IMG/VR virus record: IMGVR_UViG_3300022752_000430
Span: 1 to 22,295 of that record
Length of the DNA: 22,295 bases
From: a virus
Strand: one strand, 5' to 3'
Notes under the pieces: model-generated
Told to the model about the DNA's origin: nothing
The model's database searches: none
Seen by the model: only the letters and a program-made list of their open reading frames with translations
Shown: piece by piece, positions 2,779-21,740 of the stretch
Layout of the letters: every line of letters starts with the position of its first letter
How positions within the stretch are numbered: position 1 is the first letter of the stretch
Made by a program: the position numbers and the translations under genes

Positions 2779-3030
2779 CTATTCCGTTTTCGCTGGCGGC
2801 TCCCCCTCCCTTGCAGAGTCATCGGGATACCCCCCGTTTATCGTGTCATTCAGCCAGTCGTAGATGAACGAATACAGGTCAACCACCTCGCCGATAGCGT
2901 CCTGCCGGTCGAGCCTAAACGGGTGGGCGAAATGATCTTCATCCACCACCTTCCCCTCGCCGTCGCACCGGAAGATGCTCACGTACTTCCGCGACACGTC
3001 GATGACGATCTTCCCTTCAACCGGGTTCAC
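2779..3030 (-). CDS. Small acidic protein of unknown function
   Basis: An 83-residue protein. The GTG at 3030 overlaps the upstream TGA as GTGA and has GGGAG about 10 nt upstream, so I prefer it over GTG codons at 3033 and 3039. The N-terminal half looks like a small beta sheet (KIVIDVSRKYVSIFRC). The C-terminal half is helical and acidic, ending in a disordered Pro/Glu-rich tail. No recognised motif. It is coupled to the HTH protein upstream. Confidence 0.65.
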   Translation of the reverse strand: MNPVEGKIVIDVSRKYVSIFRCDGEGKVVDEDHFAHPFRLDRQDAIGEVVDLYSFIYDWLNDTINGGYPDDSAREGEPPAKTE

Positions 3031-3428
3031 CACTGGCACTCCCGGTTCAAGTCATCGAACGTGTTCCGCAATTCCTCTGGCATTTCGACCGGCCGCATCT
3101 GAAACATCTCAGGCTTCGCCACCTGCCGCGCCGCCCGCACCTCGTCGGTCCAGTGAGCCGAGACGCACGTTGCCCGTGCCGCCACCCACGGGGCAAGGTC
3201 GAGGCTGGCTTCGCTGGCGGCGATCTCTTGCGGCGTCGGCTTCTCCGCTCGGGGCGGGCGGAACCGCAGCCGCCGGTCGTGACGCAGCGGCAGCGGCAGC
3301 ACATCGCGCAGCCTCACGAGTTGATCGCGGGTCACGGTCCAGAACGCGCAGATGGCGGCGTAGCTCGAGTGGCTCGCCCACTGGACGCGGAGGGTCTCGA
3401 TGTCGATGCGTGAGGTGTCACCCGCCAC
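3027..3428 (-). CDS. HTH protein with C-terminal DLxPWVxAR motif (paralogue of the 7204-7551 gene)
   Basis: A 133-residue protein with a GTG start and GAGGAAAC upstream; it overlaps the preceding gene by 11 nt. Residues about 14-48 form a probable helix-turn-helix (YAAICAFWTVTRDQLVRLRDVLPLP). A basic linker follows, and then SLDLAPWVAARATC ending in WTDEVRAAR. The same layout, HTH then DLSPWVKAR then WTQASR, occurs in the gene at 7204-7551, so the two look paralogous. A small DNA-binding regulator is the likely role. It lies directly downstream of the glycosyltransferase cassette. Confidence 0.65.
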   Translation of the reverse strand: MAGDTSRIDIETLRVQWASHSSYAAICAFWTVTRDQLVRLRDVLPLPLRHDRRLRFRPPRAEKPTPQEIAASEASLDLAPWVAARATCVSAHWTDEVRAARQVAKPEMFQMRPVEMPEELRNTFDDLNRECQW

Positions 3429-4341
3429 GTTTCGTTTCCTCTGGAATCCAGAACGACACGCAACGCATCGCCGGATTGAGTGCCATGCGGGTGCCGCCCG
3501 GCCCGTGGTAGTAGTCGCCCTCTTCCTCCATCGCCGCTGATTGGATGCTCCGATGGAAGGTCACATGCTCGCAGTCGGAGCCGTGGTATCGTCCTTGCAG
3601 AAAACGCAGCCCGTCGTAGATCGCAAGCTGGCCGAAGGCAGAGTTCACTTCGACCGGCGGCGAGCCGATTGGCGGATGCCAGTGGTGGAACCACTGCTGA
3701 TCCCGTTGCCTCCAGTGATTCAGACGGCAGGCGAAGGCGTCGTAATGAATCGCCATCGGTCTCGGCGCGATCGGCGGCTCCCACTCGCCCCACGAGTAGG
3801 ACGCCAGCCCGTAGAGCGTGCTATCCCACGCCATGTGGGCCACGCTCGTCGCTACGCCGTCCACGCCCCAGCCGCCCCAGGGGTCGGTGTCGAACACGAT
3901 CACGTAGTCGGGCCTCTCGCCGTTCCGCACAAACGTCTGGCACGCGGCGCGGTACTCGGCAAGGGCATGAGTCCGCACCGGAGCGGTCGTGTAGTTGAGG
4001 TGCGGGCGACCGTAGTCATTCAGCGATACGTGCCGCTTCTGGCCGTCGCTCCACGCGGCGAGTACTTCCTTCGTCTCGTCTGCCGAGTCGTTTTCGTGAA
4101 TGTATGCCGACCACTCGCGGAACATCGCGCCGGTCTGCTCGACAAGCTCCAGCGTTCTCGGCAGCCAGGGCATCGCGTTGCGGCAGATCGCGACGAGGGC
4201 GACCGTCTTCGTCTTGGCAATCTCCCGCCCGGCCTGCACCGCCGCCGCGTAGTCATCCGCGAACTCAGGGTCGGGCGGCAGCAGCACGTCGGGATGGTGC
4301 CGCTCGATCTCGTCTAGCGTGATGGTTGCCATGCCCGCCAT
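3418..4341 (-). CDS. GT-A-type glycosyltransferase, CAP59-like
   Basis: A 307-residue protein; a second in-frame ATG at 4332 is equally possible. Residues about 47-110 contain VALVAICRNAMPWLPRTLEL and YIHENDSADET, matching the N-terminal nucleotide-sugar region of GT-A enzymes related to CAP59-type mannosyltransferases. DYVIVFDTDPWGGWG provides the DxD metal site. The C-terminal part has VNSAFGQLAIY, GSDCEHVTFH and a GG-rich tail, typical of processed-acceptor GTs. It is the last of three consecutive glycosyltransferases. It probably transfers a sugar to a cell-surface or virion glycan; the substrate is not determinable. Confidence 0.75.
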   Translation of the reverse strand: MAGMATITLDEIERHHPDVLLPPDPEFADDYAAAVQAGREIAKTKTVALVAICRNAMPWLPRTLELVEQTGAMFREWSAYIHENDSADETKEVLAAWSDGQKRHVSLNDYGRPHLNYTTAPVRTHALAEYRAACQTFVRNGERPDYVIVFDTDPWGGWGVDGVATSVAHMAWDSTLYGLASYSWGEWEPPIAPRPMAIHYDAFACRLNHWRQRDQQWFHHWHPPIGSPPVEVNSAFGQLAIYDGLRFLQGRYHGSDCEHVTFHRSIQSAAMEEEGDYYHGPGGTRMALNPAMRCVSFWIPEETKRGG

Positions 4342-5670: not shown

Positions 5671-6302
5671 TTCTTCACGAAGATCGCCGCGCCGTTGCGG
5701 ACATAGGACGAAGCCCAGACCAGATGCCATGCCGGATCACTGAGCAGTTCGGCCCGAGCCTGCGTGCACTTGTAGGCGTGGAACGCATCATCCAGCATGA
5801 AGCAACTCACGCGGTCACGGAGCAGCCGGAACTCGTCCCAGCCGGTGAACTCGGAGCCGTCAATCAAGGCAACGTCGAACCGCTCGCCGGGCGTCTCTTC
5901 GATGTAGCCAGGAACGCCGCCCGGCTTGCCCGCCATGTAGCCCACGAACTTCTGCCACCATCCGGCAACGGCTTCCTCGGGATACCTCAGCCCGTTGTAC
6001 GGCGACTGCCACACGTCAGCGAAGCATTGCGGCGTCAGCGAACGCTGCGAGATGGATGAGCCGTGATAGCAGTAGACCCACGACTCACGGCGGTAGCGTT
6101 CCGCCAGCCGCTCGAACCGCATGCGGTCGCTCTCAATCGCCACGAGACGCGGCGAGACATGCTTGCCGAGCGTGCTGGCAAGGATCGCCGTTGAGCCAGA
6201 GCCGTCCCACGAGCCGATCTCGATGGCACTGCGGAAGCCGTAGTTCAGCACCGTCTGTGCGATGGCCCGCCCGAAGTCGTCGTTCAATGTGATTTCTGGC
6301 AT
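5667..6302 (-). CDS. Class I SAM-dependent methyltransferase (small-molecule or sugar type)
   Basis: A 211-residue protein starting MPEITLNDDFG. The ATG overlaps the rusA stop by one base (TGATG). IEIGSWDGSGSTAILA at about residues 26-41 is the glycine-rich SAM loop. VAIESD follows as the acidic end of strand 2, and FDVALIDGSEFTGWDEF is a motif shared with O-methyltransferases and cephalosporin-hydroxylase-like proteins. It lacks the (D/N/S)PP(Y/F/W) motif of DNA methylases. Next to three glycosyltransferases, sugar O-methylation is the best inference. Confidence 0.75.
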   Translation of the reverse strand: MPEITLNDDFGRAIAQTVLNYGFRSAIEIGSWDGSGSTAILASTLGKHVSPRLVAIESDRMRFERLAERYRRESWVYCYHGSSISQRSLTPQCFADVWQSPYNGLRYPEEAVAGWWQKFVGYMAGKPGGVPGYIEETPGERFDVALIDGSEFTGWDEFRLLRDRVSCFMLDDAFHAYKCTQARAELLSDPAWHLVWASSYVRNGAAIFVKK

Positions 6303-6709
6303 CAGCAGATCCGCACTGTGGTGCGGCCCTCCGTTCCCCACGACTTCTCGACCACCACCCGCCCGACCTGGGTGTCATCCGCCCACGCCACGCCGTTCAA
6401 TGAATCCTCAATTCCCTTCAAGCAGTTCGAGCAATCGGCCCTCGGCAGCTTCGGGGCGTCATCTCGCAGCCCGCTCTTGCGGAAATGCGACTTCGGGCGG
6501 GCGAACACCAGATCGACAATCAGCGTGATCGGTGCCGCGTCAGTCGGCGTCGCCCCAGCCTCGACGGCAGCCGCAGCAATCGCAGCCCGGTAGGCGTGAA
6601 TCTTGTGGTCGCCCGGAGTGTAGGCGTGCCCATGCCTGCCTCGCACCGTGATGCGTGGACGCGGTTGCGGCACCGGATCGCCTTCGACTGTGAACGAGAT
6701 CGACATCAT
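6302..6709 (-). CDS. rusA: RusA-family Holliday junction resolvase
   Basis: A 135-residue protein, close to the usual RusA length of about 120. ATG codons at 6709 and 6706 are both possible; the first overlaps the upstream stop as ATGA. The N-terminus ISFTVEGDPVPQPRPRIT is the typical RusA beta strand and PxPQxRPR segment. The catalytic region is PRADCSNCLKGIEDSLNGVAWADDTQV. The first Asp, the later Asp and the DD pair of the usual D-x-D-N...D...DD pattern are present, but the second Asp position is Ser. RusA cleaves four-way DNA junctions, here fitting recombination-dependent phage replication together with RecT. Confidence 0.9.
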   Translation of the reverse strand: MMSISFTVEGDPVPQPRPRITVRGRHGHAYTPGDHKIHAYRAAIAAAAVEAGATPTDAAPITLIVDLVFARPKSHFRKSGLRDDAPKLPRADCSNCLKGIEDSLNGVAWADDTQVGRVVVEKSWGTEGRTTVRIC

Positions 6710-6852
6710 CCCCTCGCCGCGAGATACAGCCCGACGTTGGCGAACGCATACCCGAGGTAGGCGAGACCTAGCCCCGCTTTGCCATGCAGGGCCAGGTCTG
6801 CCGCCACCACGAGGTAGATCGCTCCCGTCAATGCGATCAACCAAGGTGCCAT
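6706..6852 (-). CDS. 48-residue membrane protein with two hydrophobic segments
   Basis: The protein begins MAPWLIALTGAIYLVVAADL, continues with GKAGLGLAYLGYAFANVGLYL and ends in a short basic tail. Two hydrophobic helices are separated by a short polar turn, so both ends should lie on the same side of the membrane. The stop overlaps the rusA start as ATGA, and the start lies 3 nt from the upstream stop, so it is part of the operon. Small two-helix proteins of this pattern are common in phage early regions, with unknown function. Confidence 0.7.
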   Translation of the reverse strand: MAPWLIALTGAIYLVVAADLALHGKAGLGLAYLGYAFANVGLYLAARG

Positions 6853-6855
6853 GGG

Positions 6856-7152
6856 TCACCGATACCGGATGACGGCGAACCACATGCGGCGAGCCGGCGA
6901 GTAGGCCACTCCTTCCTCGACGATCTGCCGCTTGCCGAAGAAACAGCAGTTGCGCCGGGCAGCCTCGGGCGTCGCGCCCATGCCGATTCCCTCGTACTGG
7001 TTGCAGTGCGAATGCACCAGCGAGCCACGGCGGGCGATGATCGTGGCGTGATCCTGGGCCGTCACGACGGCAGGGCCACGAACGATTACGGTCGTGTCAG
7101 CCTGAGCCGAGACAGCAGCGAGACAGACGAGCACAGCGAACAGACAACGCAT
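6856..7152 (-). CDS. Small exported protein of unknown function
   Basis: A 98-residue protein with a clear signal peptide: MRCLFAVLVCLAAVSAQA with probable cleavage after AQA at about residue 18. The mature part has a Cys/Arg-rich core (ATPEAARRNCCFFGKRQ) and ends in an aromatic strand (RMWFAVIRYR). A phage early-region protein sent to the envelope or periplasm could be a superinfection-exclusion or surface-modifying factor, but that is inference. Its SD GGAGG, 9 nt before the ATG, lies inside a strong hairpin at 7160-7191. Confidence 0.75.
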   Translation of the reverse strand: MRCLFAVLVCLAAVSAQADTTVIVRGPAVVTAQDHATIIARRGSLVHSHCNQYEGIGMGATPEAARRNCCFFGKRQIVEEGVAYSPARRMWFAVIRYR

Positions 7153-7555: not shown

Positions 7556-8662
7556 TCAGTCCTTTGCAAGGGGCATAATGACGCCCGTGAACGTGTCGGT
7601 CTTCATCACCACCGCCGACAGGTGATCCTTCGCCTGGATCGACACAGTAGGCTCGCCATCCGCCGGCAGGCCAGTCAGCCACTCCCGCACGAAGATCGGA
7701 TCAAGCTTCACCGTGCAGGCGTGGCCCGCCTCCACGATCTCGCACGTCACGCTCGACTCACCGGCCTCGGACGACTGGCCGTGCAGGTGAATACCCTCGG
7801 CGGTGAACGTGTAGTCCACGCCCTTCGACTGCTCGCTGGTCACGACCGCCGCCGCCCTGGTCGCCGACAGCAACTGCTCGGCAGTCACCGTGGTCGGCTC
7901 GACATCGTGCTCTGGCGCGGCGTCACGCCAACGCGGGAACCGACCGTCCACGAGCCGACCAGTGACCGTCGTGGTGCCGATCTCGAAGATCACCTCACTC
8001 GAGGTCGCGTCGATCTGCACACCCTCGTCTCCGACCGCATGGGCGAACTTGCTGACGATGGACGCCAAGCGGCTGGCCACCAGCGTCGCAGAATCGTCCA
8101 CCGCCAGGTCGTGCTCCATCTCGGCAATCGACAGGCGTCGCCCGTCCGTCGCCACGAACGTCACCTTTTCGCCCTGCACTTCGAGCAGCACAGCCCCCAA
8201 GGCGTAGCGGCTGCTCTCGCCGTCCACGGCGTAGCCAACGCCCCGGATCGCCCGGGCCAACTGATCGGCAGGCAGCCGCGTGATGGGCTTCGCGTCCACG
8301 GGCTCCCAGATCGGAAACTCTGCCGCGTCCTCGGTGGGTAGCGTCCACGTTCCAGATCCGCACCGCACGACGCACTTCGTGCCGTCATGAGTCAGCGTCA
8401 CTTCCTCGCCACTCGACGCCTGCATGATCGCGAGCAGCCGCCCGTGAGGCAGCAGGATCGCGTCGCCGTGGTAGTCGATCGCCGCGTCGATCCGCACCTC
8501 GAGATCCGTGCCAGTGACGAGCCCGTCACCCAGACGCACGTTCGTCAGGATGGGCTTTGGTGCCCGGCTTGGCACCGCCGGGCTGACCGTCAATAGAGCG
8601 GTCGTAAGGTCTGATGACAGCAGCGTGATGCCGCCGGTCTTTTTTCGTGTTGCAGTAGCCAT
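7556..8662 (-). CDS. dnaN: DNA polymerase III beta sliding clamp (phage-encoded DnaN homologue)
   Basis: A 368-residue protein, the normal length for a bacterial beta clamp. The ATG has GAAAGGAAG about 9 nt upstream. Landmarks are LGDGLVTGTDLEVRI at about 44-58, FVATDGRRLSIAE at about 169-181 at the domain II centre, VDGRFPRW in the inter-domain region, and a C-terminus VIMPLAKD equivalent to the VVMPMRL end of DnaN. A ring-shaped dimer would tether a polymerase to DNA. No replicative polymerase is recognised in the window, so it probably serves the host Pol III. Its N-terminal coding region overlaps a membrane-protein gene by 137 nt in another frame. Confidence 0.93.
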   Translation of the reverse strand: MATATRKKTGGITLLSSDLTTALLTVSPAVPSRAPKPILTNVRLGDGLVTGTDLEVRIDAAIDYHGDAILLPHGRLLAIMQASSGEEVTLTHDGTKCVVRCGSGTWTLPTEDAAEFPIWEPVDAKPITRLPADQLARAIRGVGYAVDGESSRYALGAVLLEVQGEKVTFVATDGRRLSIAEMEHDLAVDDSATLVASRLASIVSKFAHAVGDEGVQIDATSSEVIFEIGTTTVTGRLVDGRFPRWRDAAPEHDVEPTTVTAEQLLSATRAAAVVTSEQSKGVDYTFTAEGIHLHGQSSEAGESSVTCEIVEAGHACTVKLDPIFVREWLTGLPADGEPTVSIQAKDHLSAVVMKTDTFTGVIMPLAKD

Positions 8663-8959: not shown

Positions 8960-9179
8960 CGCTCCTCCTTTCCTTGTCTGCATGCCTGTGGCACTTCTCG
9001 CACAGCAAGAGCACGTCATCCGGCAGTTCGTTGCCAAGCCGCTCGTATGTCACGTGGTGGGTCTGAAGCGGCACGCCCGTGGCGAAGCAGGCTTCGCAGT
9101 ACGATGGCCGAGACGCTCGCACGCGCCGCTTGAACTTCCGCCACTTAAGCGAACGCATGTGACGCTGGTAGGGAGTCAT
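8949..9179 (-). CDS. HNH endonuclease
   Basis: A 76-residue protein starting MTPYQRHMRS. The ATG overlaps the LexA-like stop as ATGA, which decides it over an upstream in-frame start. It has a basic N-terminal region, then the HNH fold: CEAC (28-31), THHVTYERLGNE (40-51, catalytic His pair and Asn) and LLLCEKCHRHADKE (57-70, zinc Cys pair and final His). The four Cys form the structural zinc site. In phages HNH proteins of this size are homing-type or packaging-associated nicking nucleases. Its place beside replication genes favours an early DNA-processing role. Confidence 0.85.
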   Translation of the reverse strand: MTPYQRHMRSLKWRKFKRRVRASRPSYCEACFATGVPLQTHHVTYERLGNELPDDVLLLCEKCHRHADKERRSDVA

Positions 9180-9415
9180 GCGTCGCCCTCCACCGGCATG
9201 ATCGTGCGGGCGCGGTTCGGCTCCCAGGTAATCCACCCTTTCGCCCGCAGCGGCAGAATGTGCGACACCGCACCGTTCTGCGATTGAAAGCCAAACGCTT
9301 GGCAGATGTCCCTCACGGTCGGGCTGTAACCGTGGCCAACGCGGTACTTGACGATGAAGTCAAGCACCTCGCGTTGACGCTTAGTCAGCGGACGGCGTTC
9401 GATGGTGACGTTCAT
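9176..9415 (-). CDS. LexA-type DNA-binding domain protein without peptidase domain
   Basis: A 79-residue protein. PLTKRQREVLDFIVKY, GYSPTVRDICQAFGFQSQNGAVSHILPL and RAKGWITWEPNRART together make the complete LexA N-terminal winged helix (three helices plus wing). The C-terminal Ser/Lys self-cleavage domain is absent: the protein stops right after the wing. ATGA overlap with the initiator upstream. It could be a small repressor acting at SOS-like or phage operators but unable to self-cleave. A fragment of a longer repressor is less likely because the start and stop are both coupled to neighbours. Confidence 0.85.
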   Translation of the reverse strand: MNVTIERRPLTKRQREVLDFIVKYRVGHGYSPTVRDICQAFGFQSQNGAVSHILPLRAKGWITWEPNRARTIMPVEGDA

Positions 9416-10353
9416 AGATCCTCCTCCTTGAGTTTGAGGCCAGCCGCCAGCGCGGCGACTTGCTTGGGTGTGCGGTACGCGGCCGGGGACAGCCCGGCGA
9501 ACTCACGGGCCTTGCGATCCAACGCGGCCCGCTTGTCTGCGTCGCCTGGCGTTCTGCCTGGGCTGCGGTTCGTGCCGCCCTGGTCCTGGCACCGGGACAG
9601 CCAGCGGACGACGAACGCCCTCCAGTTGCGGCGTCCTGCCCGGCTGGGGTTCGCCTTTAGCCAGGCGGTGGCCTTGGCGAGCTCCTGGTCGAGCACGGCA
9701 CCTGGGTAGGCGGCTGCCCATTCCTGGCGGTCGCCGTCCGTGATGCCCTGCCAGCCGTCTGCAGCCGTCCACGACACGGCGGACTTCGCCCGCGAGCGAG
9801 CCGCAGGCTTGCTCGTGGGAACCGGCGCAGCCGGTATATATTCTTCTTCTCTACTCTTATCTTCTGGTCGTGACGCGCCGTGACGTTTCGTGACGCGCTC
9901 GCCGCCACGCTTCCGCTCCCGATATTCCTTGGCTCGCTGGGCGTCCGACTTAGGCTCCGACCGCATTTTCTGGGGCACGTTGTGCTCAGAAAAGTTCGGA
10001 AAAACAAGGCCTTTTTCGTCGTGGAGCGTCACCCAGCCTACAGCCACCAAGGCGTCCCCAAACCCAGGCACTCCGACGATGTCATCTATGTCACTGACGG
10101 CCATGTATGGAACCCAACAGTCGCCACCGACCACGTCGTTCAGCGCGAACCAGAGCTCAGTGAGCGCACACGCCGTGACGCGCGTCACGTTTTCAAACGT
10201 GACGATTTCCGTGACACTGTGACGGCACGACATGCGGACAGGATCGGACCACCAGGCCATGAACTCAGGGTTATGCGACAGGTGGCGAGCGAGCGCCACT
10301 GTCTTCGGCAGCTGCCGGATGCCTCTCCTGATGCGAATCCAATCACTAGCCAT
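9412..10353 (-). CDS. Probable phage replication initiator (replisome-organizer type)
   Basis: A 313-residue protein with a start at ATG 10353 (10356 also possible). GGAGG lies just upstream. The N-terminus DWIRIRRGIRQLPKTVALARHL and the following helical region are typical of phage replication proteins of the DnaD/lambda-O kind. A basic linker (REYRERKRGG) follows, then a Pro/Ala-rich hinge, then a C-terminal domain with NPSRAGRRNWRAFVVRWLSR. The gene carries two clusters of GTGAC repeats and an AT-rich pyrimidine tract (9835-9895 and 10174-10224), as in the lambda O gene where the origin is internal. The initiator role is inferred. Confidence 0.7.
   Translation of the reverse strand: MASDWIRIRRGIRQLPKTVALARHLSHNPEFMAWWSDPVRMSCRHSVTEIVTFENVTRVTACALTELWFALNDVVGGDCWVPYMAVSDIDDIVGVPGFGDALVAVGWVTLHDEKGLVFPNFSEHNVPQKMRSEPKSDAQRAKEYRERKRGGERVTKRHGASRPEDKSREEEYIPAAPVPTSKPAARSRAKSAVSWTAADGWQGITDGDRQEWAAAYPGAVLDQELAKATAWLKANPSRAGRRNWRAFVVRWLSRCQDQGGTNRSPGRTPGDADKRAALDRKAREFAGLSPAAYRTPKQVAALAAGLKLKEEDL
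9835..9895. repeat. Iteron-like array of three CGTGACG repeats at exact 10-bp spacing next to an AT-rich pyrimidine tract
   Basis: CGTGACG occurs at 9869, 9879 and 9889, exactly one helical turn apart. A 10-bp period cannot be produced by codon repetition. Immediately beside it, 9835-9865 has only 8 G+C in 31 bases and the plus strand has no G from 9841 to 9865. Repeats plus an easily melted tract inside an initiator gene is the architecture of the lambda origin. This is a candidate DnaA-independent phage origin or its first half. Confidence 0.55.
10174..10224. repeat. Second GTGAC cluster with two overlapping perfect palindromes
   Basis: CGTGACGCGCGTCACG at 10174-10189 is a perfect 16-bp palindrome. 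Overlapping it, arms of 10 bp at 10183-10192 and 10195-10204 are separated by two bases (CGTCACGTTT and AAACGTGACG). Further direct copies start at 10210 (CGTGACA) and 10218 (TGTGACG). The same CGTGACG unit forms the three-copy array at 9869-9895 in the same gene. It probably binds the same protein, perhaps the initiator itself. Confidence 0.5.
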
Positions 10354-10422
10354 CATGGCCTCCTTTCCATTCCGCCCCGCCGCGTCGAAGCGGCACCGTG
10401 CCTATCACGGGGGCGGCAACTA

Positions 10423-11001
10423 TCAGACTGCGGAAGCCTCGTTCTTGAAGTGAACACGTCCGCTTCCGTTTCTGACCTCAAGATCAACGACCAGAGAAGG
10501 CTTGCTGTACTTTCCATCCCCTTGCGACCCGCGCTTTGGAAGTTTGCGAGTTCCTTTGAGCAATGCCTTTCTGATCGTTTCGCGCCGGCGTTTGTGTCGC
10601 GCGGCATTGCCCTCAAAGGTCCTGCTTGGCCCTGGTCGCTTGAGCTCAAAGCCTGCCAACCCAGTCACGTCGCGACCTCGATCAAAGTTTTCAATCAAGT
10701 CCCGCATTTCCGACGACAAAATGAATCGCTCAACTCTTCGCTTGCCATCAGGGCCTGGCAGTTCGACATAAGCAACGGACCTCCAGAAAAGAACTTTCGT
10801 GGCAGCAAATTGCCTCTTGCATGCCTGAGCAAACACGCAGCAGCCAGGATCTTTTCTTGTCGCTTTTCGAACGTCTTCTGGCTGTATGAAGACACGGAGG
10901 TCTTTAGGTGCGTCAATAACTTCAATGTCCCCCCAAACTCGCTTGATCTCAGCCAAAGACCTCATTTGCGGGCCGCTACGAAAACTGTTTTTCGTCGCCA
11001 T
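10423..11001 (-). CDS. Unknown protein of atypical base composition
   Basis: A 192-residue protein starting MATKNSFRSGP. GGGAG lies about 10 nt upstream of the ATG; ATG codons further upstream lie in a less protein-like leader. Features: IEVIDAPKDLRVFIQPEDVRKA, DPGCCVFAQACKRQF (paired Cys), a beta strand with SVAYVEL, FDRGRD, and a strongly basic tail (RHKRRRETIRKALLKG). Counted GC in four 60-base lines (10681, 10741, 10861, 10921) averages about 49 percent, against 65 percent at 8161-8220, suggesting later acquisition. Function unrecognised; the basic tail hints at nucleic-acid binding. Confidence 0.7.
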   Translation of the reverse strand: MATKNSFRSGPQMRSLAEIKRVWGDIEVIDAPKDLRVFIQPEDVRKATRKDPGCCVFAQACKRQFAATKVLFWRSVAYVELPGPDGKRRVERFILSSEMRDLIENFDRGRDVTGLAGFELKRPGPSRTFEGNAARHKRRRETIRKALLKGTRKLPKRGSQGDGKYSKPSLVVDLEVRNGSGRVHFKNEASAV

Positions 11002-11075
11002 CTCTCGTCTCCCTTGCTTTCGCGTCCTCTCACCCATCATTCCGCCGGCCCACACGAGCCGATACGGCGTGTTCG

Positions 11076-11393
11076 TTACGCCACCCTCCACACCACCGCC
11101 ATCCGTCCGCTCGCCGTCCGCCTGGTCCCGGCCTCAACCACCATCCCGCGCCGTGCAAGCTCTATCCGCCGTGGCCTCTGCGTTGACGGGTTCATCCCGA
11201 GCCGTCGCTGCATCTCCTCATCGGTCAGCCCATCGGGCGTGGCCTCCAGGAGCTCGAGCACCTTCCGCTGCATGGCATTCAGCGTCGCAGGCCCAATCGA
11301 GTCGGCCGCCTGGGCCGACGTGATCGAGCCGGCGACGGATGGCGCACGTTGGGCGAACAGCGGCAGCGGCAGGTCTGGCCAGTAGTCACTCAC
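11076..11393 (-). CDS. Winged-helix DNA-binding protein
   Basis: A 105-residue protein with GTG start at 11393, inside a GTGA overlap with the stop of the 49-residue HTH gene. The N-terminal 40 residues are flexible and Pro/Ala-rich. Residues about 42-105 form a winged helix: AMQRKVLELLEATPDGLTDEEMQRRLGM, then STQRPRRIELARRGMVVEAGTRRTASGRMAVVW, where the last part is the wing. The STQRPRR recognition helix and SGRxAxVW wing recur in phage early proteins. A repressor or replication-accessory role is possible. Confidence 0.8.
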   Translation of the reverse strand: MSDYWPDLPLPLFAQRAPSVAGSITSAQAADSIGPATLNAMQRKVLELLEATPDGLTDEEMQRRLGMNPSTQRPRRIELARRGMVVEAGTRRTASGRMAVVWRVA

Positions 11394-11573: not shown

Positions 11574-12464
11574 TCACGCCACCGCTTCCGCGTCGAACAG
11601 CGTCTTGCTGTCCGCTTCGTGCCGTCGCCGCGCGAGGGCTAGGTTCTTCAACGCCTGGGCGTGGTACTCCGGCTTCAGCTCGCAGCCGTAGAACCTCCGG
11701 CCACGCTGGAGCGAAACGTAGCCCTCGCTGCCAATCCCTGTGAACGGCGAGAACACGATTTCACCCGGGTTGCTGTAGAGCCTGACGAGCCGGTCAATCA
11801 CGTCTAGCTGCAATGGGCAGATGTGCTTCGTGTCTTCCTCGCTGCGGGCTTCCTTGACGTTGAGCGTGTTCGTCTCGCGGATGTCGCTCCAACAGCATTC
11901 CGCCCAGTCAATCCACTCGTTCCGCGACACCTCGCCATCGGAGTCGATGGCTACTTCGTTCTCACCTGGAGCCCGGAACTTGATGAGGTAGTCGGGCAGA
12001 CAGCCGCGTTGCTTCGCTCGGTCGCTTTCGAGCCCGGCGAATTGAAGCTCACGGCTCCGCGTGCGAATCGCCTGAGCCTGCGGATTCTTCCGCACCACCC
12101 AGTCGTATTCGTAGACCAGCCCGGCCCGTTCCCCGAGCCGGATGTTGAGCCCGCGATAGTCATGCAGCCCGACTTCGCCGCTCCGCTTCAGTCGCGGGAT
12201 CTGCATGACGTGAACGACCACGGCCCGGCCCGGCTTGAGCACTCGACGCAGCCCGCGAAAGAAGTAGCCAAGGTGGATCTTCGCTTCGCCCCGCATGTCC
12301 TCGCTGTTGCCGATGTCCTCTGCCTTGCTCGTGTAGGCGAACAGGCTCGGGAACGGCGGCGAAAAGACAGCGAAGTCAATCGATTTCGCCGGCATGTCCT
12401 GCATCATGTGAGGGATGCAGTCGCCGTGGTGGACGTGGTAACGGCCAGATTCATTCAGCAGCAT
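11574..12464 (-). CDS. DNA methyltransferase, N4-cytosine/N6-adenine beta-type
   Basis: A 296-residue protein. AGGAGG lies 12 nt upstream of the ATG, and it overlaps the helicase gene by 14 nt. Motif IV is FAVFSPPF at 32-38; the S-P-P-F form is typical of m4C and some m6A enzymes. Motif I, GEIVFSPFTGIGSEG, is near residue 234-248 after motif IV, so the order is beta-type (IV before I). CPLQLDVIDRLVRLY matches the region before motif I in these enzymes. A target-recognition region lies between. It modifies cytosine N4 or adenine N6 in DNA; the specificity is unknown. No cognate restriction nuclease was recognised, so it may protect phage DNA. Confidence 0.87.
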   Translation of the reverse strand: MLLNESGRYHVHHGDCIPHMMQDMPAKSIDFAVFSPPFPSLFAYTSKAEDIGNSEDMRGEAKIHLGYFFRGLRRVLKPGRAVVVHVMQIPRLKRSGEVGLHDYRGLNIRLGERAGLVYEYDWVVRKNPQAQAIRTRSRELQFAGLESDRAKQRGCLPDYLIKFRAPGENEVAIDSDGEVSRNEWIDWAECCWSDIRETNTLNVKEARSEEDTKHICPLQLDVIDRLVRLYSNPGEIVFSPFTGIGSEGYVSLQRGRRFYGCELKPEYHAQALKNLALARRRHEADSKTLFDAEAVA

Positions 12465-13902
12465 CGCGGAACATAGCCTCCTGCTCTCGGGTGTCAGCCT
12501 CGACGCGACGTGCCTTCCTCAGCACGTTCTCAACCATCGGGCGTTCAACGTCAGATACCGGGATGTGGACGTGCAGCGGGCGTGTCGATCCGATCCGGTT
12601 CGACCGCTTCACCGCTTGGTAGTACTCCTCGTAGGAGTCCTGTAGTCCGCTGAAGACTTGGCGTGTGCAGATTTGGAGATTGAGGCCGAAGCCGAGAATC
12701 TTCGGCTTGCTGAGCAGCACGCGAACGCGGCCCGCCTTGAAGTCGTCAACAATCCGCTGCCGCTCTTCGACAGGCGTGTCGCCGTCGATGCTCGCCGCCT
12801 CCGGCAGCACTTGCTCCAGGGCTCGCTGCTCATCGTTGTAGCGGCACCAGATGAGCGTCGATTCATCGGGCCACGACCGCACGAGTTCCGCGATGTACTG
12901 CGGCTTCGGGCTGCTCTCGCACTTCGCCATCCGCGACAACTTTGACCGCGTCGTGATGCCGCCTAGCTCAGTGACGAATAGCTGCCCCGTCTCGGCCCGC
13001 ACCTTCCGCTCTTGCTCATCAGACAGCCGAACCTCTTCGATGCTGACGTGAATCGGCGGGATGCTGTGGACGTTGTCCTTCCAGCCGTAGGTGCTCGGGT
13101 CCGTCAGGAAGATGCACCAGTGCGAAAGGGCACGGTAGAAGGGACGCAGGGCGTGCGGCTTGAGTTCCCAACGCTCATTCGTCTGCCCACGGTTGATAAA
13201 GAAGCGAGCCAGAAACGCATTGACGTTCGGAAAGGCGTCGAGAAATACCGCGTGATTCGCGTACTCGATCCGGTCGTTCGGTGCCGGCGTTCCCGTGAGG
13301 GCGAGCTTCCACGGCACGCCAGCCCCAAGCCGGAGGCAGACTTGCCCCCATTTCCCGTAGTGGCTCTTGAGCATCGAAGACTCATCGAGAATCAGCCCGC
13401 CTAGGTCGCCGGCTGGCGTGTCATCGCGCAGGGCGTCGTAGTTCGTGATGCCGAGCCGACCGCCTGGAGCACCAAGCCACTTAGCCAGATCCTTTGCCGC
13501 AACCTGCTCGATGGGCAGCGAATCGCCGTAGAACTTCGCCGCCTCTTCCATCGTTTGCTTCACCACCATGAGCGGCGAGACGATGAGCACCGGCTTATCC
13601 TGAACAGCCCGGACGTGTCGGGCGAACTCAAGCAGCATCGGCGTCTTGCCGAGCCCGCAGTCGGCGAAGATCGCAAACTTCCGCTTTTGGATGGCAGTGC
13701 GGACGATGTCCCGTTGGTAGTCGAACAGCCACTGAGAAGGCACGTAGTCTGCTGCCCGCTCCGCATCAGCGTCGATGCCGAGCGTCGCGGCGTACTCGTC
13801 GGGCACGACAGCCATCCGTCCGCGAATCGCGTAGCGCGGCAGCGACTTCACCTTCAGGAAGGTGCGGTAGGAGTCGATGCTGTCGTCGAGGTAGATGTCC
13901 AC
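12451..13902 (-). CDS. SNF2-family helicase
   Basis: A 483-residue protein with GTG start and CGAAAGGGA 4 nt upstream. The N-terminal 55 residues are a possible targeting region. Helicase motifs follow in order: Q-like DYQRDIV (61-67), Walker A DCGLGKT (81-87), motif II LDESS (172-176), motif III LTGTPAPN (202-209). The second RecA lobe has WCRYNDEQRAL, then VLLSKPKILGFGLNLQ and motif VI QAVKRSNRIGSTRP. The DESS box and RSxRIGxTRP place it in the SNF2 superfamily 2 group used by many phages. It probably remodels or unwinds phage DNA, working with the overlapping methyltransferase. Confidence 0.9.
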   Translation of the reverse strand: MDIYLDDSIDSYRTFLKVKSLPRYAIRGRMAVVPDEYAATLGIDADAERAADYVPSQWLFDYQRDIVRTAIQKRKFAIFADCGLGKTPMLLEFARHVRAVQDKPVLIVSPLMVVKQTMEEAAKFYGDSLPIEQVAAKDLAKWLGAPGGRLGITNYDALRDDTPAGDLGGLILDESSMLKSHYGKWGQVCLRLGAGVPWKLALTGTPAPNDRIEYANHAVFLDAFPNVNAFLARFFINRGQTNERWELKPHALRPFYRALSHWCIFLTDPSTYGWKDNVHSIPPIHVSIEEVRLSDEQERKVRAETGQLFVTELGGITTRSKLSRMAKCESSPKPQYIAELVRSWPDESTLIWCRYNDEQRALEQVLPEAASIDGDTPVEERQRIVDDFKAGRVRVLLSKPKILGFGLNLQICTRQVFSGLQDSYEEYYQAVKRSNRIGSTRPLHVHIPVSDVERPMVENVLRKARRVEADTREQEAMFRDAAE

Positions 13903-14256: not shown

Positions 14257-14510
14257 GCCGCCACGCCCTTCGCTGCCCGCAGCTCAGACGCCTGGTGCAG
14301 AATCTTTGCGGCCATGGCGGCCACCTCGTCGGCTAGCGACGCCTTGGCCTCGGCCTCGGTGTCGAACCAATCCGGCGTTCGCCGCCAGCGTGTGTCGCCT
14401 CCATCGATCCACGCGCCGCACTCCGAGACGTAGCCGTAGTGGCACCAGACGGTCGCACCACGGTGGTCGAAGTTGACGTGGGCTCTGTAGACCTTCTGTC
14501 GCTCGCTCAT
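14253..14510 (-). CDS. Small protein of unknown function
   Basis: An 85-residue protein. ATGA overlap with the RecT gene upstream and with the gene downstream. The first half looks like a beta sheet with many aromatic residues (VNFDHRGATVWCHYGYVSECGAWI), and the second half is an Ala-rich helix. No recognised domain. The tight coupling on both sides makes it a real gene. Confidence 0.7.
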   Translation of the reverse strand: MSERQKVYRAHVNFDHRGATVWCHYGYVSECGAWIDGGDTRWRRTPDWFDTEAEAKASLADEVAAMAAKILHQASELRAAKGVAA

Positions 14511-15361
14511 GCCCGCACCTCGTGCTCAGCGGCTTCGTGCGGAAACTCCTGGCCCTTGTCCTCCGGCTCGGCCAACAAGAAGTCCAGCTTTCCGTTGATG
14601 AGGTTCAGCAGCTCGTCGGCCTGGCCCGGCGTGTAGAACCGAGACCGCAGACGCTCTTCGACGATGCCCTGCATTCGCTCGAGCTGCCCGGCCGTAGCGG
14701 TCTGGACGTAGTGCCTTGCCTTCCGCATGTCATCGTCGGTGGCCCTCGTGGCGTCGCCAGCCGACTCGGGCGACGGAAACTTCGGACGCACCACCACGGG
14801 CTCCCTGGCGGGCTCTGGCGGCACGACGGGCGTGGGTGCGTCTGCAACCTCGTCCGGGTCGTAGATGCCCACCGCTCCCTCCCAGCCGATGCTCTTGAGC
14901 CCGGCCGTGATGGCACGGCTGCGGAGCATCGCCTTCGGGTGCTTGGCGTAGTTGTCGTTCGACGCCAGGCCGGCACGCTTGGCGTCCTCGATCGTGAACG
15001 TCTCGGTGTGCTCATCGCCGTTTGGATGACGCAGCACGAGCACGGCCCGAGTCTCTGTCAGTTCCTTGAACTGGGCTCGGCCTCCGCACGACTTGAACCG
15101 GGCCAATTGCGAATCAGCCCGCTCGGTTACGGTGCCCTTGATCACCTGCAACTTGCGGCAGGCGGCCATGGTGCCCATGCCAAGCTCGCGGCCCATCAGC
15201 ACGATCGCCGCGAACGACACGCCGTCCTTGATGTGGCTGGGGAGAAATCCAGTGCGACGCAACTGGTCGCCCATGTGGACCAGGCCGTCGAACGACGGCT
15301 CGTCGTGAGAAGATGCGGCCAATGCTGTGGCCATCGGTCGAGTTGTCAGTCCCGTGCTCAT
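14507..15361 (-). CDS. recT: RecT-family ssDNA annealing protein
   Basis: A 284-residue protein. The ATG has GAAAGGGA about 9 nt upstream. The RecT core is visible: LVHMGDQLRRTGFLPSHIKD, then AIVLMGRELGMGTMAACRKLQVIKGT, then VLRHPNGDEHTETFTIEDAKRAGL and YAKHPKAMLRSRAITAGLK ending at the VGIYDPDEV element. After residue about 195 a Pro-rich linker leads to a C-terminal helical part. RecT promotes strand annealing at broken phage DNA. A RecE or other exonuclease partner was not recognised in the window. The gene is in one operon with the SNF2 helicase and DNA methyltransferase. Confidence 0.85.
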   Translation of the reverse strand: MSTGLTTRPMATALAASSHDEPSFDGLVHMGDQLRRTGFLPSHIKDGVSFAAIVLMGRELGMGTMAACRKLQVIKGTVTERADSQLARFKSCGGRAQFKELTETRAVLVLRHPNGDEHTETFTIEDAKRAGLASNDNYAKHPKAMLRSRAITAGLKSIGWEGAVGIYDPDEVADAPTPVVPPEPAREPVVVRPKFPSPESAGDATRATDDDMRKARHYVQTATAGQLERMQGIVEERLRSRFYTPGQADELLNLINGKLDFLLAEPEDKGQEFPHEAAEHEVRA

Positions 15362-16319: not shown

Positions 16320-16847
16320 TCATGCAGCCCCCACCAACGGTGCCGAGATGCCGAGGTCGGCGAGGCTGAGCACCGCCGGGTCGCACTGCTGCGGGGAAAC
16401 GAGCCACGTGTATGGCCTGCCGCTCGGGTGAATCGACGGTGGCAGCACGCTCTGAGCGGGCTTGCCGCCCATGCGGATCTCAAGGCCACCACGCTTCACC
16501 CATCCGCGAGCCGGCAGCGGGTCCGCGAGGCGGAAGAGGTGGTGCATTCCACGCTGGCTCGACCAGCACGGCGTCTCGATCTCGCAGAGCGGCGTGCCGT
16601 CTGCGGTCTCAAGCTCGCGGAACATCTCGCAGCCGGCGAGGTCGTCGTATTCGATGTCGATCAGCCCGCCCGATCCGCACAGCAGCCCGACGTTGTCGCC
16701 GGCTGCGAGCCACGCGGCGATCTCGGAAGGGTCAGAACTGGCGAGCGTGTTCCACGCCATGCCGAGCGGCGTCTTGCCGCGACGGGCAACGCGGACGCAG
16801 GAGGCACCGCAATCGAGCAGGGCGAGCATGTCAGGGTCGAGGGGCAT
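16320..16847 (-). CDS. Stand-alone primase-polymerase (Prim-Pol) N-terminal domain
   Basis: A 175-residue protein starting MPLDPDMLALLDC; GGAG lies about 9 nt upstream. An in-frame ATG at 16898 overlaps the promoter -10 and is not likely. Landmarks of the bifunctional DNA primase/polymerase fold: LIDIEYDDL (metal-binding acidic strand), SQRGMHHLFRL (Ser-x-x-Gly-x-His), and GLEIRMGGKPAQSVLPPSIHPSG ending in TWLV. The domain is usually fused to a helicase or longer primase; here it stands alone. It probably makes primers for phage replication. Its promoter is at 16900-16928. Confidence 0.8.
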   Translation of the reverse strand: MPLDPDMLALLDCGASCVRVARRGKTPLGMAWNTLASSDPSEIAAWLAAGDNVGLLCGSGGLIDIEYDDLAGCEMFRELETADGTPLCEIETPCWSSQRGMHHLFRLADPLPARGWVKRGGLEIRMGGKPAQSVLPPSIHPSGRPYTWLVSPQQCDPAVLSLADLGISAPLVGAA

Positions 16848-16899
16848 CGGAGGGGCTCCAGCGTTAGAGGCAAACTTGGTTTCGTACGATTCGTGCATA

Positions 16900-16928
16900 T
16901 GTATACGCAGGTCTTTGCATATCGTCAA
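16900..16928 (-). promoter_or_regulatory. Strong sigma70-like promoter for the Prim-Pol gene
   Basis: On the minus strand TTGACG (16923-16928) and TATACA (16900-16905) are separated by 17 bases, close to consensus. The spacer has ATATGCAA followed by GACCTG, an element shared with the promoter at 17834-17862. Transcription would start near 16893, leaving a leader of about 45 nt to the ATG at 16847. Confidence 0.6.
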
Positions 16929-17170
16929 CGGACAATTCCTAGGGCGGCATCGGCAAGGTCGAGAGTCGCCCGGCCAAGCTGCCGCAGACGCCCCGGTTGG
17001 GGCTGCGGCTGGGGTATCGGCTGATAGACCGGCTGGGCGTGGGGTTGCTGGCTGGCGATCCGCGTGGCGATCTCCAGCATGGCGAGCCGCTGGCGGGTCT
17101 CGACCAGGAGTGAGCAGCCGGCGGCGAGCACGGCGATGACGAGCGCGGCCCTGAGCGTGTCGTGGATCAT
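16925..17170 (-). CDS. Small membrane protein or lipoprotein with Pro/Gln-rich region
   Basis: An 81-residue protein. The ATG has AAAGGA about 5 nt upstream. A hydrophobic N-terminal segment (LRAALVIAVLAAGCSLLV) contains AAGC, a possible lipobox; a plain membrane anchor is the alternative. An amphipathic helix follows, then a Pro/Gln repeat region (residues about 44-60) and a final helix. Short anchored, Pro-rich phage proteins are often spanin-like or exclusion factors, but the position in the early region argues against a lysis role. Confidence 0.65.
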   Translation of the reverse strand: MIHDTLRAALVIAVLAAGCSLLVETRQRLAMLEIATRIASQQPHAQPVYQPIPQPQPQPGRLRQLGRATLDLADAALGIVR

Positions 17171-17251
17171 GGCTGTCCTTTCTGTGTGCGATTGCCACCC
17201 GTTTCGCAGCTGTCGGCAGGCCGGGTGGCCCCACCTAAATGGTCGCTTTGC

Positions 17252-19951: not shown

Positions 19952-20435
19952 TGCGGCACTCCTGATGGCAAGCTGCGTATCCGGCGATGTCCACGGCGGC
20001 ATCGTCTGTGGGGGCAGTGCCACGCTGGCGGGCGATCTTGTCGAGCACCATCACGAGTGCCCAATCGGCAGACGTGAACGTCGTGCCGAAGGCGGCGTTG
20101 ACGAGGGCTGCCGTGCGGGCGAAGTGCTCGGTCGGCGGCCCATACTTGGTGTGCCTGTCACGGACGGCGGCGACAGCCTGACGAAGCGTCTGCTCGGCAA
20201 TCGTGACAACCGGCCACTCGGAGTACGGGTCGCTGTGGTCGCTACGCAGCCGCGTACCTTCGCAGCAGGATTGTCTCGCGAGCAGTTCGGCCGCACATTG
20301 CTGGGCCGGTTCGCAGCCAGCAAGCGGCCCCGGCTTGTATCCCTGCATCTTCGGATCGCTCGGGTCCGTCGCCGCCATCCGCAGGGCCACGGCGTCGCGG
20401 AGTGAATCGTTTGCAGACTCAAGAGTCACGGTCAT
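19944..20435 (-). CDS. DUF6378-domain phage protein
   Basis: A 163-residue protein with GAAAGG about 7 nt before the ATG. The C-terminal 70 residues hold the domain signature: RHTKYGPPTEHFARTAALVNAAFG, then TSADWALVMVLDKIARQR and DDAAVDIAGYAA. This all-helical domain recurs in phages, often near metabolic or DNA genes; its activity is not established. The N-terminal half is Cys-containing and specific to this protein. It overlaps the phosphoesterase gene by 17 nt. Confidence 0.8.
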   Translation of the reverse strand: MTVTLESANDSLRDAVALRMAATDPSDPKMQGYKPGPLAGCEPAQQCAAELLARQSCCEGTRLRSDHSDPYSEWPVVTIAEQTLRQAVAAVRDRHTKYGPPTEHFARTAALVNAAFGTTFTSADWALVMVLDKIARQRGTAPTDDAAVDIAGYAACHQECRNA

Positions 20436-21498
20436 GTTTTGCCTTTCTCAGATCTCGGTCGCAGAACAATGGATATGCCTTGGTCACCTCGTTGCGTCCG
20501 TGGTCGATCACGAACGCGGCCTGGCACGGCGGCTCGTAGTTGGCCTTGATGCGGATAGCGTAGGCACTGTGTCCAATCACGCTGCCGTTCGTGACGTAGC
20601 GACCGCTGCGGCCCCACGAGAACTGATGCCAGTGACCGATGCACGTCAGGTCTGCCCGCGTGGTCGAGTCCCACGCGGCGATAGCCTTGTTGAGCGGGAC
20701 ATGAATCCCGCCGATGCCACCCTGGTAGCGAATCGCATGACCGTGGCAGAACCGCACACGGAACCCGTCGAGTTCCACGTAGTTCAGATGCCCTTCACTG
20801 ACGAGCCAGCGGACGTTCTTCCGCTTCTCCTCTGCCTGCATCGTGAGATACAGGTCATGTTCGTAGCTGGTGTCGGCTTCGTTGGTGCGAAGTTTCTCCG
20901 TGGTGCGACCATGATTTCCGCAAGAAGTCGCCACCACGATTTCTTTCGCATGCTCGCTCGCTTGGTCGATGAACGTGCGGAGCCGAGAGCCAATCCACCT
21001 CTTCGCCGCCAGCGGATGCAGGGCGTTCTCTTCGGCGAGTTCCGGGTGGATCATGCCGCTGATGAGGTCGCCGCCGAGCCAGATGCACACGCGGTCGATC
21101 CGGCACAGTTGCCGCTCGTGCTCGAGCATGGCGAAGAACCGCGACCACAACTCATTGAGCCGCTGTTCGCAGATGTCGAGGCTGTATTCGTTGAGCCCGT
21201 TGACTGTCTCGGGCCGCACCGTCTCTTCGCAGTGAATGTCACTGAGCAGCACGACCATCGTCGCGGCATGCCTGGAACCCTTGACACTACTGGTCAAGGG
21301 CTTGGCAGGCTCGATGCCCTTGAGGCTCACGAGCGAGTCCGCACGCTCACGCTGGCGGTCGATCTCGCCCAGAGCCGCCTTATACCTGTTTCGATATGAC
21401 GCCAACTCCGACCGCAGCCTTGCCAGTTCGGCGTCGGCGGCAAGCTGCGATGCGTCGGCCACCGCAGCATCGATCTCGGTCAGCTTTGAGCGAGCCAT
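20419..21498 (-). CDS. Calcineurin-like metallophosphoesterase
   Basis: A 359-residue protein starting MARSKLTEID. GGGGGTGG lies about 5 nt upstream; an in-frame ATG at 21663 lies inside the upstream gene and is rejected. Residues about 10-60 are probably coiled coil. The metal-binding set follows: LLSDIHCEE (D87, H89), GGDLISG (D144), CGNHGR (N195, H196), CHGHAIRY (H252, H254) and IGHWHQF (H289, H291). This is the phage metallophosphoesterase type related to nucleases of the Mre11/SbcD superfamily. It may process DNA ends or cyclic nucleotides; the substrate is unknown. Confidence 0.87.
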   Translation of the reverse strand: MARSKLTEIDAAVADASQLAADAELARLRSELASYRNRYKAALGEIDRQRERADSLVSLKGIEPAKPLTSSVKGSRHAATMVVLLSDIHCEETVRPETVNGLNEYSLDICEQRLNELWSRFFAMLEHERQLCRIDRVCIWLGGDLISGMIHPELAEENALHPLAAKRWIGSRLRTFIDQASEHAKEIVVATSCGNHGRTTEKLRTNEADTSYEHDLYLTMQAEEKRKNVRWLVSEGHLNYVELDGFRVRFCHGHAIRYQGGIGGIHVPLNKAIAAWDSTTRADLTCIGHWHQFSWGRSGRYVTNGSVIGHSAYAIRIKANYEPPCQAAFVIDHGRNEVTKAYPLFCDRDLRKAKHDRDS

Positions 21499-21740
21499 TC
21501 CGCCACCCCCTTTCGGCTGCAGATTCGCCAATTGCGTTTCTCGGCGTAGTCGATCAGGACGGATGCGAGCGAATACTTCGGAATGTTGTATCCGCCGGCA
21601 TGGAACTTCTCGCGGGCCGCCAGCAGCGTCGCCTTCGCGTCCTCTGGCAGAGCGTCGAACCACGTTCGAGGCTTCAGTGATACGGCGGTCGCCGCCACTG
21701 CGGAGTCGATCTCGTCAAGCAGGCCTGTTGCCTTTGGCAT
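21480..21740 (-). CDS. Small helical protein, possible DNA-binding
   Basis: An 86-residue protein starting MPKATGLLDEID. CGAAAGGAG lies about 6 nt upstream of this ATG; it is 2 nt after the metallopeptidase stop. The C-terminal part IPKYSLASVLIDYAEKRNWRICSRKGVAEWL is HTH-like (two helices and a turn), preceded by PRTWFDALPEDAKATLLAARE. It overlaps the phosphoesterase gene by 19 nt. A small terminase or regulator is possible, but nothing specific is visible. Confidence 0.65.
   Translation of the reverse strand: MPKATGLLDEIDSAVAATAVSLKPRTWFDALPEDAKATLLAAREKFHAGGYNIPKYSLASVLIDYAEKRNWRICSRKGVAEWLAQS

Follow-up and report, generated by a model that had tools for sequence, protein, structure and literature searches.

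A putative replication origin within a phage initiator gene, with compact one-turn iterons and a candidate exchangeable specificity cassette

Whether a phage initiator gene holds the replication origin on which its own product would act is the question raised by a short segment of a 22,295-bp viral sequence from IMG/VR, the whole of which is referred to here as the window. The original prediction placed three copies of CGTGACG inside the coding sequence of a probable replication initiator, and these were confirmed, with a spacing of exactly 10 bp, at 9869-9875 (linker iteron 3, CGTGACG on the plus strand and conserved in the relatives L032 and L040), 9879-9885 (linker iteron 2) and 9889-9895 (linker iteron 1), the latter two identified by motif scan and by their conservation in relatives. 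The iterons are read in three different frames, encoding RVT, RHG and ASR, and peptide repetition therefore cannot account for them, as had been proposed. The neighbouring tract at 9835-9865 (TATATATTCTTCTTCTCTACTCTTATCTTCT) has the 26% GC first reported for it, and is the lowest-GC 31-mer of the window (overall 64% GC). It is also the longest plus-strand run without G, although its length is 31 nt rather than the 25 bases originally given. The GC and G-free scans, together with the homologues described below, mark 9835-9865 as a putative melting element that is strand-asymmetric and purine-rich on the coding strand. The GC skew of the window displayed no turning point.

The gene that contains these elements extends from 9412 to 10356 on the minus strand and encodes 314 amino acids (313 from the second Met). 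The proposed initiator function is borne out by matches to phrog_2509, 'replication initiation protein' (E=6.2e-24), and phrog_9474 (E=1.8e-9), and by homologues in IMG/VR; Pfam and NCBIfam profiles returned nothing for the protein, and a PDB sequence search nothing for the query A1. The window protein does not match phrog_678, 'replication initiation O-like', the profile matched by the related YdaU across its linker and C-terminus. Judged by profile and homologue matches, the window gene is a member of the phrog_2509/YdaU-like initiators. The AlphaFold2 model (pLDDT mostly 80-93) displays an N-terminal domain, residues 1-120 (9994-10353, minus strand), with a helical start followed by a winged-helix-like fold. 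A basic helix, SDAQRAKEYRERKR (residues 137-150; 9904-9945, minus strand), lies directly N-terminal to the disordered linker encoded by the iterons, and the model and its counterpart in MAGEWIP-type proteins suggest that it is a site-specific DNA contact; it may resemble the basic regions of bZIP proteins. The model and alignments further define a conserved C-terminal domain, residues 189-257 (9583-9789, minus strand), which is common to phages with unrelated N-terminal domains, and the segment that follows the tract, CCGGCTGCGCCGGTTCC, is likewise conserved across unrelated N-domains. Foldseek searches of the PDB with both models gave weak winged-helix-type or unrelated matches, none with E<=0.001. 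A likeness of the C-terminal domain to RecA was considered but not used, a single RecA domain giving E=0.29 and strong matches arising only with fused multi-copy chains; the profile of this domain in relatives resembles a C-terminal segment of RecA (ATAWLKANP), which may be chance.

The gene contains an additional 5' iteron cluster, overlooked in the first reading, at 10174-10225. A motif scan and the site positions in L032 and L040 place CGTGACG at 10174, CGTCACG at 10183 and CGTGACG at 10198, with two decayed sites to ~10225. The cluster is ~130-185 bp inside the initiator gene and 285 bp from the linker cluster. Five close records (L032, L033, L034, L040 and L067, some of them near-identical) retain all six intact sites of the window at the same gene positions, with spacings of 10 and 10 bp and of 15 and 9 bp; in the close relatives the 5' cluster comprises six intact sites, compared with the three intact and two decayed sites of the window, and the three intact window sites coincide in gene position with sites in L032 and L040. 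Base-by-base comparison with L032, L040 and L067 showed that 42/42 iteron bases are identical, while the rest of the region is ~75% identical at the DNA level. The synonymous-site check originally suggested gave the same picture, as third positions within the iterons are 16/16 identical versus 57% elsewhere (hypergeometric p ~2e-4 for these three relatives), and the spacer residues differ (RVTKRHGASRP in the window, RVTARHETSRP in the relatives). Loss of the repeats from homologues that keep the protein, the outcome named as contrary to the original prediction, was thus not seen in L032, L040 or L067, where the six sites are intact. In the L001 group both clusters have shifted together from CGTCACG to CGTAACG, and in more distant homologues the corresponding position holds different repeats, every copy of which has changed in the same way.

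IMG/VR scans provided 123 unique initiator genes for analysis. Most members of this family share the C-terminal domain, whereas their N-terminal domains fall into several types. In nearly all homologues inspected visually, the DNA that joins the two domain codes holds group-specific repeats of 5-11 bp, spaced by approximately one helical turn or by 22 bp. The linker repeat is CGTAACG in the L001 group, GTACGC in L005, GTCCGC in L125 and TGTCCG in L011; L006 contains GATCGCAAACG every 11 bp and L015 CATAGCAAACG every 11 bp, while in L007 GTGACG is paired with CGTCAC in 18-bp inverted units at a spacing of 22 bp. A plain GTNNCG scan of all homologues was discarded as too crude for non-GT iterons. 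Most often a strand-asymmetric tract, rich in purines on the coding strand, comes after the repeats; the L006 type has a pyrimidine-rich stretch instead. A further N-domain type (MAR..SIKP; L172, L213 and L214) has linker repeats of the CCGGGAAAT type, with CCGGGAAATTTCCCGG in L172. In L128 and L125, which are nearly identical locally, every GTACGC of the one, in either orientation, is replaced by GTCCGC in the other, and such concerted change of all copies is as expected for sites bound by one protein. Three relatives were found in bacterial genome bins, two labelled Planctomycetota and one Burkholderiales.

The residues that track the repeats were sought in 50 unique MAGEWIP-type N-domains, identical domains having been removed. 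Alignment column 105 was the best predictor of iteron class (MI/H 0.91 across the 50 domains). When the comparison was confined to clusters of similar N-domains, this column retained 0.837 of a possible 0.895, whereas no column exceeded 0.505 in 500 within-cluster shuffles; it was followed by neighbouring columns of the helix spanning 97-113, which is encoded immediately before the first repeat. Columns beyond ~111 were discounted because they are partly encoded by the repeats. The residues at 105 and 109 are paired with the repeats as follows: H/Q with GTGACG (n=19), D/K with GTCCG (n=12), K/Q with GTAGACG (n=7), E/Q with GTACGC (n=4), N/Q with GTAACG (n=2) and N/A with GTGCGC (n=2). The single D/Q protein, L138 (gene 2896-3729), has a hybrid linker with two GTCCGC and two GTACGC sites, and is possibly an evolutionary intermediate between two specificities. 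L191, a held-out D/K protein fetched afterwards, displayed GTCCG as predicted by the rule. Two further proteins, which do not bear on the rule, gave a poor, mixed array (L192, A/Q, a pair absent from the rule set) and CGTCACG, as in the window (L193, S/K). Helix and repeats thus covary in what looks like a readable recognition code. The N-domain type of the window comprises only two main iteron classes, and we infer that the rule derived from the sister MAGEWIP type extends to the window protein.

The strongest competitor to this reading accepts the origin as proposed and assigns specificity to the winged-helix fold, the helix residues merely hitch-hiking. As the helix adjoins the repeats, linkage alone would yield a correlation, and in lambda the iterons are bound by the amino-terminal half of O (PMC4488673). 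Such an assignment is, however, rather unlikely given that L089 and L097, which are identical over residues 1-96, combine H/Q with GTGACG and D/K with GTCCG, respectively. Furthermore, residue 105 is shared in 0/36 pairs in which residues 1-96 are >=88% alike and the repeats differ, and D or E at 105 with K at 109 accompanies GTCC across several backgrounds, cultured phages included. Aligned as DNA, L091 and L097 share 93-100% identity for their first 270 nt, only 33-53% across ~130 bp that contain the helix, repeats and tract, and mostly 90-100% again thereafter. The confinement of the drop in identity to these elements indicates that a matched cassette was exchanged. On balance it is probable, on the strength of these comparisons, that the region is a portable specificity cassette, in which a helix outside the winged-helix fold would read a 5-7-bp site mainly through residues 105 and 109 and be exchanged together with the repeats and tract. 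This would constitute a natural recognition code, legible in the sequence, from which the origin and the compatibility type of many phages could be predicted. No description of such a helix-repeat code or cassette was found in the open-access literature, to which the search was limited, and its novelty is therefore only provisional.

Directly downstream of the initiator, 9176-9415 (minus strand, 79 amino acids) encodes essentially a LexA DNA-binding domain alone (PF01726, E=1.6e-20), a candidate phage repressor that lacks the peptidase portion. A DNA polymerase III beta-clamp homologue (PF02767, PF00712; phrog_947) is encoded at 7556-8662 on the minus strand, and the window further encodes a primase-like protein (16320-17234), a RecT-like protein (14507-15361), an exonuclease (20419-21663) and a RusA-like protein (6302-6883). 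Genes for a DNA methyltransferase (N6_N4_Mtase) and a SNF2-type helicase lie side by side at 11574-13902 (minus strand) and match parts of the larger phage helicase/methyltransferase families phrog_16, phrog_62 and phrog_67. The 222-residue open reading frame at 10423-11091 (minus strand) has no database match and lies in a stretch with a GC content of 56%, compared with 64% for the window.

The LexA-type protein encoded next door and the location of the 5' cluster, ~130-185 bp inside the gene, could suggest that the repeats are operator sites for the initiator or another phage regulator and that the origin lies elsewhere. This is very unlikely. Both clusters are well within coding sequence, CGTNACG does not occur between the gene start (10356) and 11073, a low-GC tract adjoins the sites in most relatives, and the repeats covary with the helix of the initiator itself and not with a neighbour. 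Less probable still is the proposal that the repeats are recombination or mosaic junctions that ease domain shuffling, with no origin present. N-terminal domains and cassettes are indeed swapped around this point, and the conservation of the post-tract segment across unrelated N-domains would fit such a role; shuffling, however, requires shared sequence, yet relatives diverge most in precisely these repeats, which track two protein residues.

Statistical tests on the window and on the family gave different outcomes. Across the window CGTGACG was only mildly enriched, with 15 occurrences versus 9.0 expected, a count reached in 7/100 shuffles. Within the initiator gene there are six CGTNACG sites versus 2.2 expected (0/500 protein-preserving codon shuffles), the motif having been picked from the window itself, and motif-blind statistics for this gene alone were not significant (p 0.07 and 0.19); no claim is therefore based on window statistics. 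In the family, clustered identical heptamers reached p<=0.05 against synonymous shuffles in 66 of the 123 initiators (54%), compared with 4 of 113 neighbouring open reading frames (4%). A pair statistic at 0.05 detected 99/123 initiators and was judged too liberal because 40/113 control reading frames also reached this level; lambda O was positive by it (33 versus 8.3, 0/500 shuffles) and lambda P was not. Thus, as far as sequence can tell, the case for iterons is secured by the homologues, the window alone being weak evidence. That the repeats reflect chance, codon usage or a low-complexity linker is scarcely credible, for although these window-alone p values and the charged, simple character of the linkers would allow it, the full conservation of the iterons in relatives, their three reading frames, the excess over control genes and the concerted changes all speak against it.

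An origin within an initiator gene is a classical arrangement, found in lambda O and in SPP1 gene 38, and the 7-bp, one-turn form replaces iterons of 18-19 bp. In lambda, gene O carries its iterons midway along, separating the codes of an N-terminal DNA-binding part and a C-terminal partner-binding part, and an A+T-rich tract with strand asymmetry lies next to them (PMC7466680, PMC4488673, PMC6022878). Binding of O dimers to these sites destabilises that tract, and P is contacted through the C-terminal part of O (PMC6022878, PMC7466680, PMC4488673). The parallel with lambda O drawn at the outset holds for layout. As in ori-lambda and its Stx-phage relatives, the window repeats are located mid-gene, between the sequences encoding the N-terminal and C-terminal domains, and as in ori-lambda they adjoin an A+T-rich, strand-asymmetric tract (9835-9865). 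Unlike ori-lambda, with its 18-19-bp inverted repeats 20-24 bp apart, the window has 7-bp sites 10 bp apart, the relative L007 with its 18-bp inverted pairs being nearer the lambda form, and no P-like or DnaC-like gene was recognised in the window. With iteron form and loader gene both unmatched, the segment is regarded as lambda-like in its working and is not classed as a lambda origin. The YdaU/phrog_2509 initiators of epsilon15, phiPSA1, TL-2011b and the Rac type are homologous to the window protein in the N-domain and also have the helix, repeats in the linker (GTAACGC or GTCCGC, usually spaced by 11-12 bp) and, in most cases, the purine tract. They differ in the C-terminal domain, which is DnaT-like in epsilon15, and several of their genes are followed by a DnaC-like gene, whereas none is recognised in the window. 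The oriL of SPP1, inside gene 38, comprises direct repeats and an A+T-rich element bound by gp38 (PMC6316719), and the likeness to the repeats and tract of the window is one of layout; SPP1 differs in that it also has another origin, oriR, and a complete set of helicase-loading functions.

Taken together, the comparisons make it highly probable that the segment is a phage replication origin within the gene of its own initiator, lambda-O-style and compact, with helix, sites and tract forming a ~130-bp exchangeable cassette. From this analysis we infer binding, melting, helicase loading and origin activity for the segment. The initiator would bind CGTNACG in the linker-coding DNA and in the 5' cluster, base specificity coming mainly from the basic helix, whose code immediately precedes the repeats. 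With sites about one turn apart, the bound monomers would line up along one side of the DNA, and the complex would strain and melt the adjacent 31-bp tract at 9835-9865. The conserved C-terminal domain would then recruit the replicative helicase or a loader; the window open reading frames scanned included no recognisable replicative helicase, DnaC-like loader or homologue of lambda P. As a guess, the 5' cluster might provide a second place for loading or a partner in DNA looping. As helix, repeats and tract lie within ~130 bp, recombination would move a matched unit, and the initiator would always carry its own target.

The in-gene layout is also found in cultured phages and prophages, namely epsilon15, phiPSA1, BUCT711, TL-2011b, CP2, Olaya, PAN70, ST11-OXA245phi3.2, Carin1 (in which the purine tract is less clear than in the others) and Rac-type YdaU. 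Ten cultured-phage genes, read by eye, agree with the rule. D or E at 105 with K at 109 accompanies GTCCGC in epsilon15, phiPSA1, BUCT711 and Carin1, while T at 105 with V at 109 accompanies GTAACG in the 442/2 Rac-type YdaU, TL-2011b, ST11-OXA245phi3.2, CP2, Olaya and PAN70. The ydaU gene of E. coli MG1655 (1421119-1421976; L189:2120-2977) encodes a DUF1376-type N-domain unrelated to that of 442/2 ydaU (L179:1228-2016), while the C-terminal 362 bp are ~86.5% identical between 442/2 and K-12-type genomes. By this alignment the difference between the two genes is the same kind of N-domain swap. Their linker repeats also differ, K-12 ydaU containing TGTTCAAACA-like repeats with a pair count reached in 0/1000 shuffles. 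Rac is reported to have an active origin, oriJ (PMC3945230), and oriJ plasmids appear as a cited title in PMC11014345. K-12 ydaU could contain oriJ; as the passages of the two papers give no position, oriJ is not used as proof, and a search of open-access papers revealed no origin mapped to ydaU. The Rac-type prophages of laboratory E. coli offer a convenient test system.

For most phages known from sequence alone, the origin is unmapped. If the rule holds, origin and specificity class would be readable from the initiator gene alone, and the many natural variants would form a data set on how initiator and origin change specificity together while function is retained. Exchange of the cassette would explain how a phage may gain a new replication type in one step by recombination.
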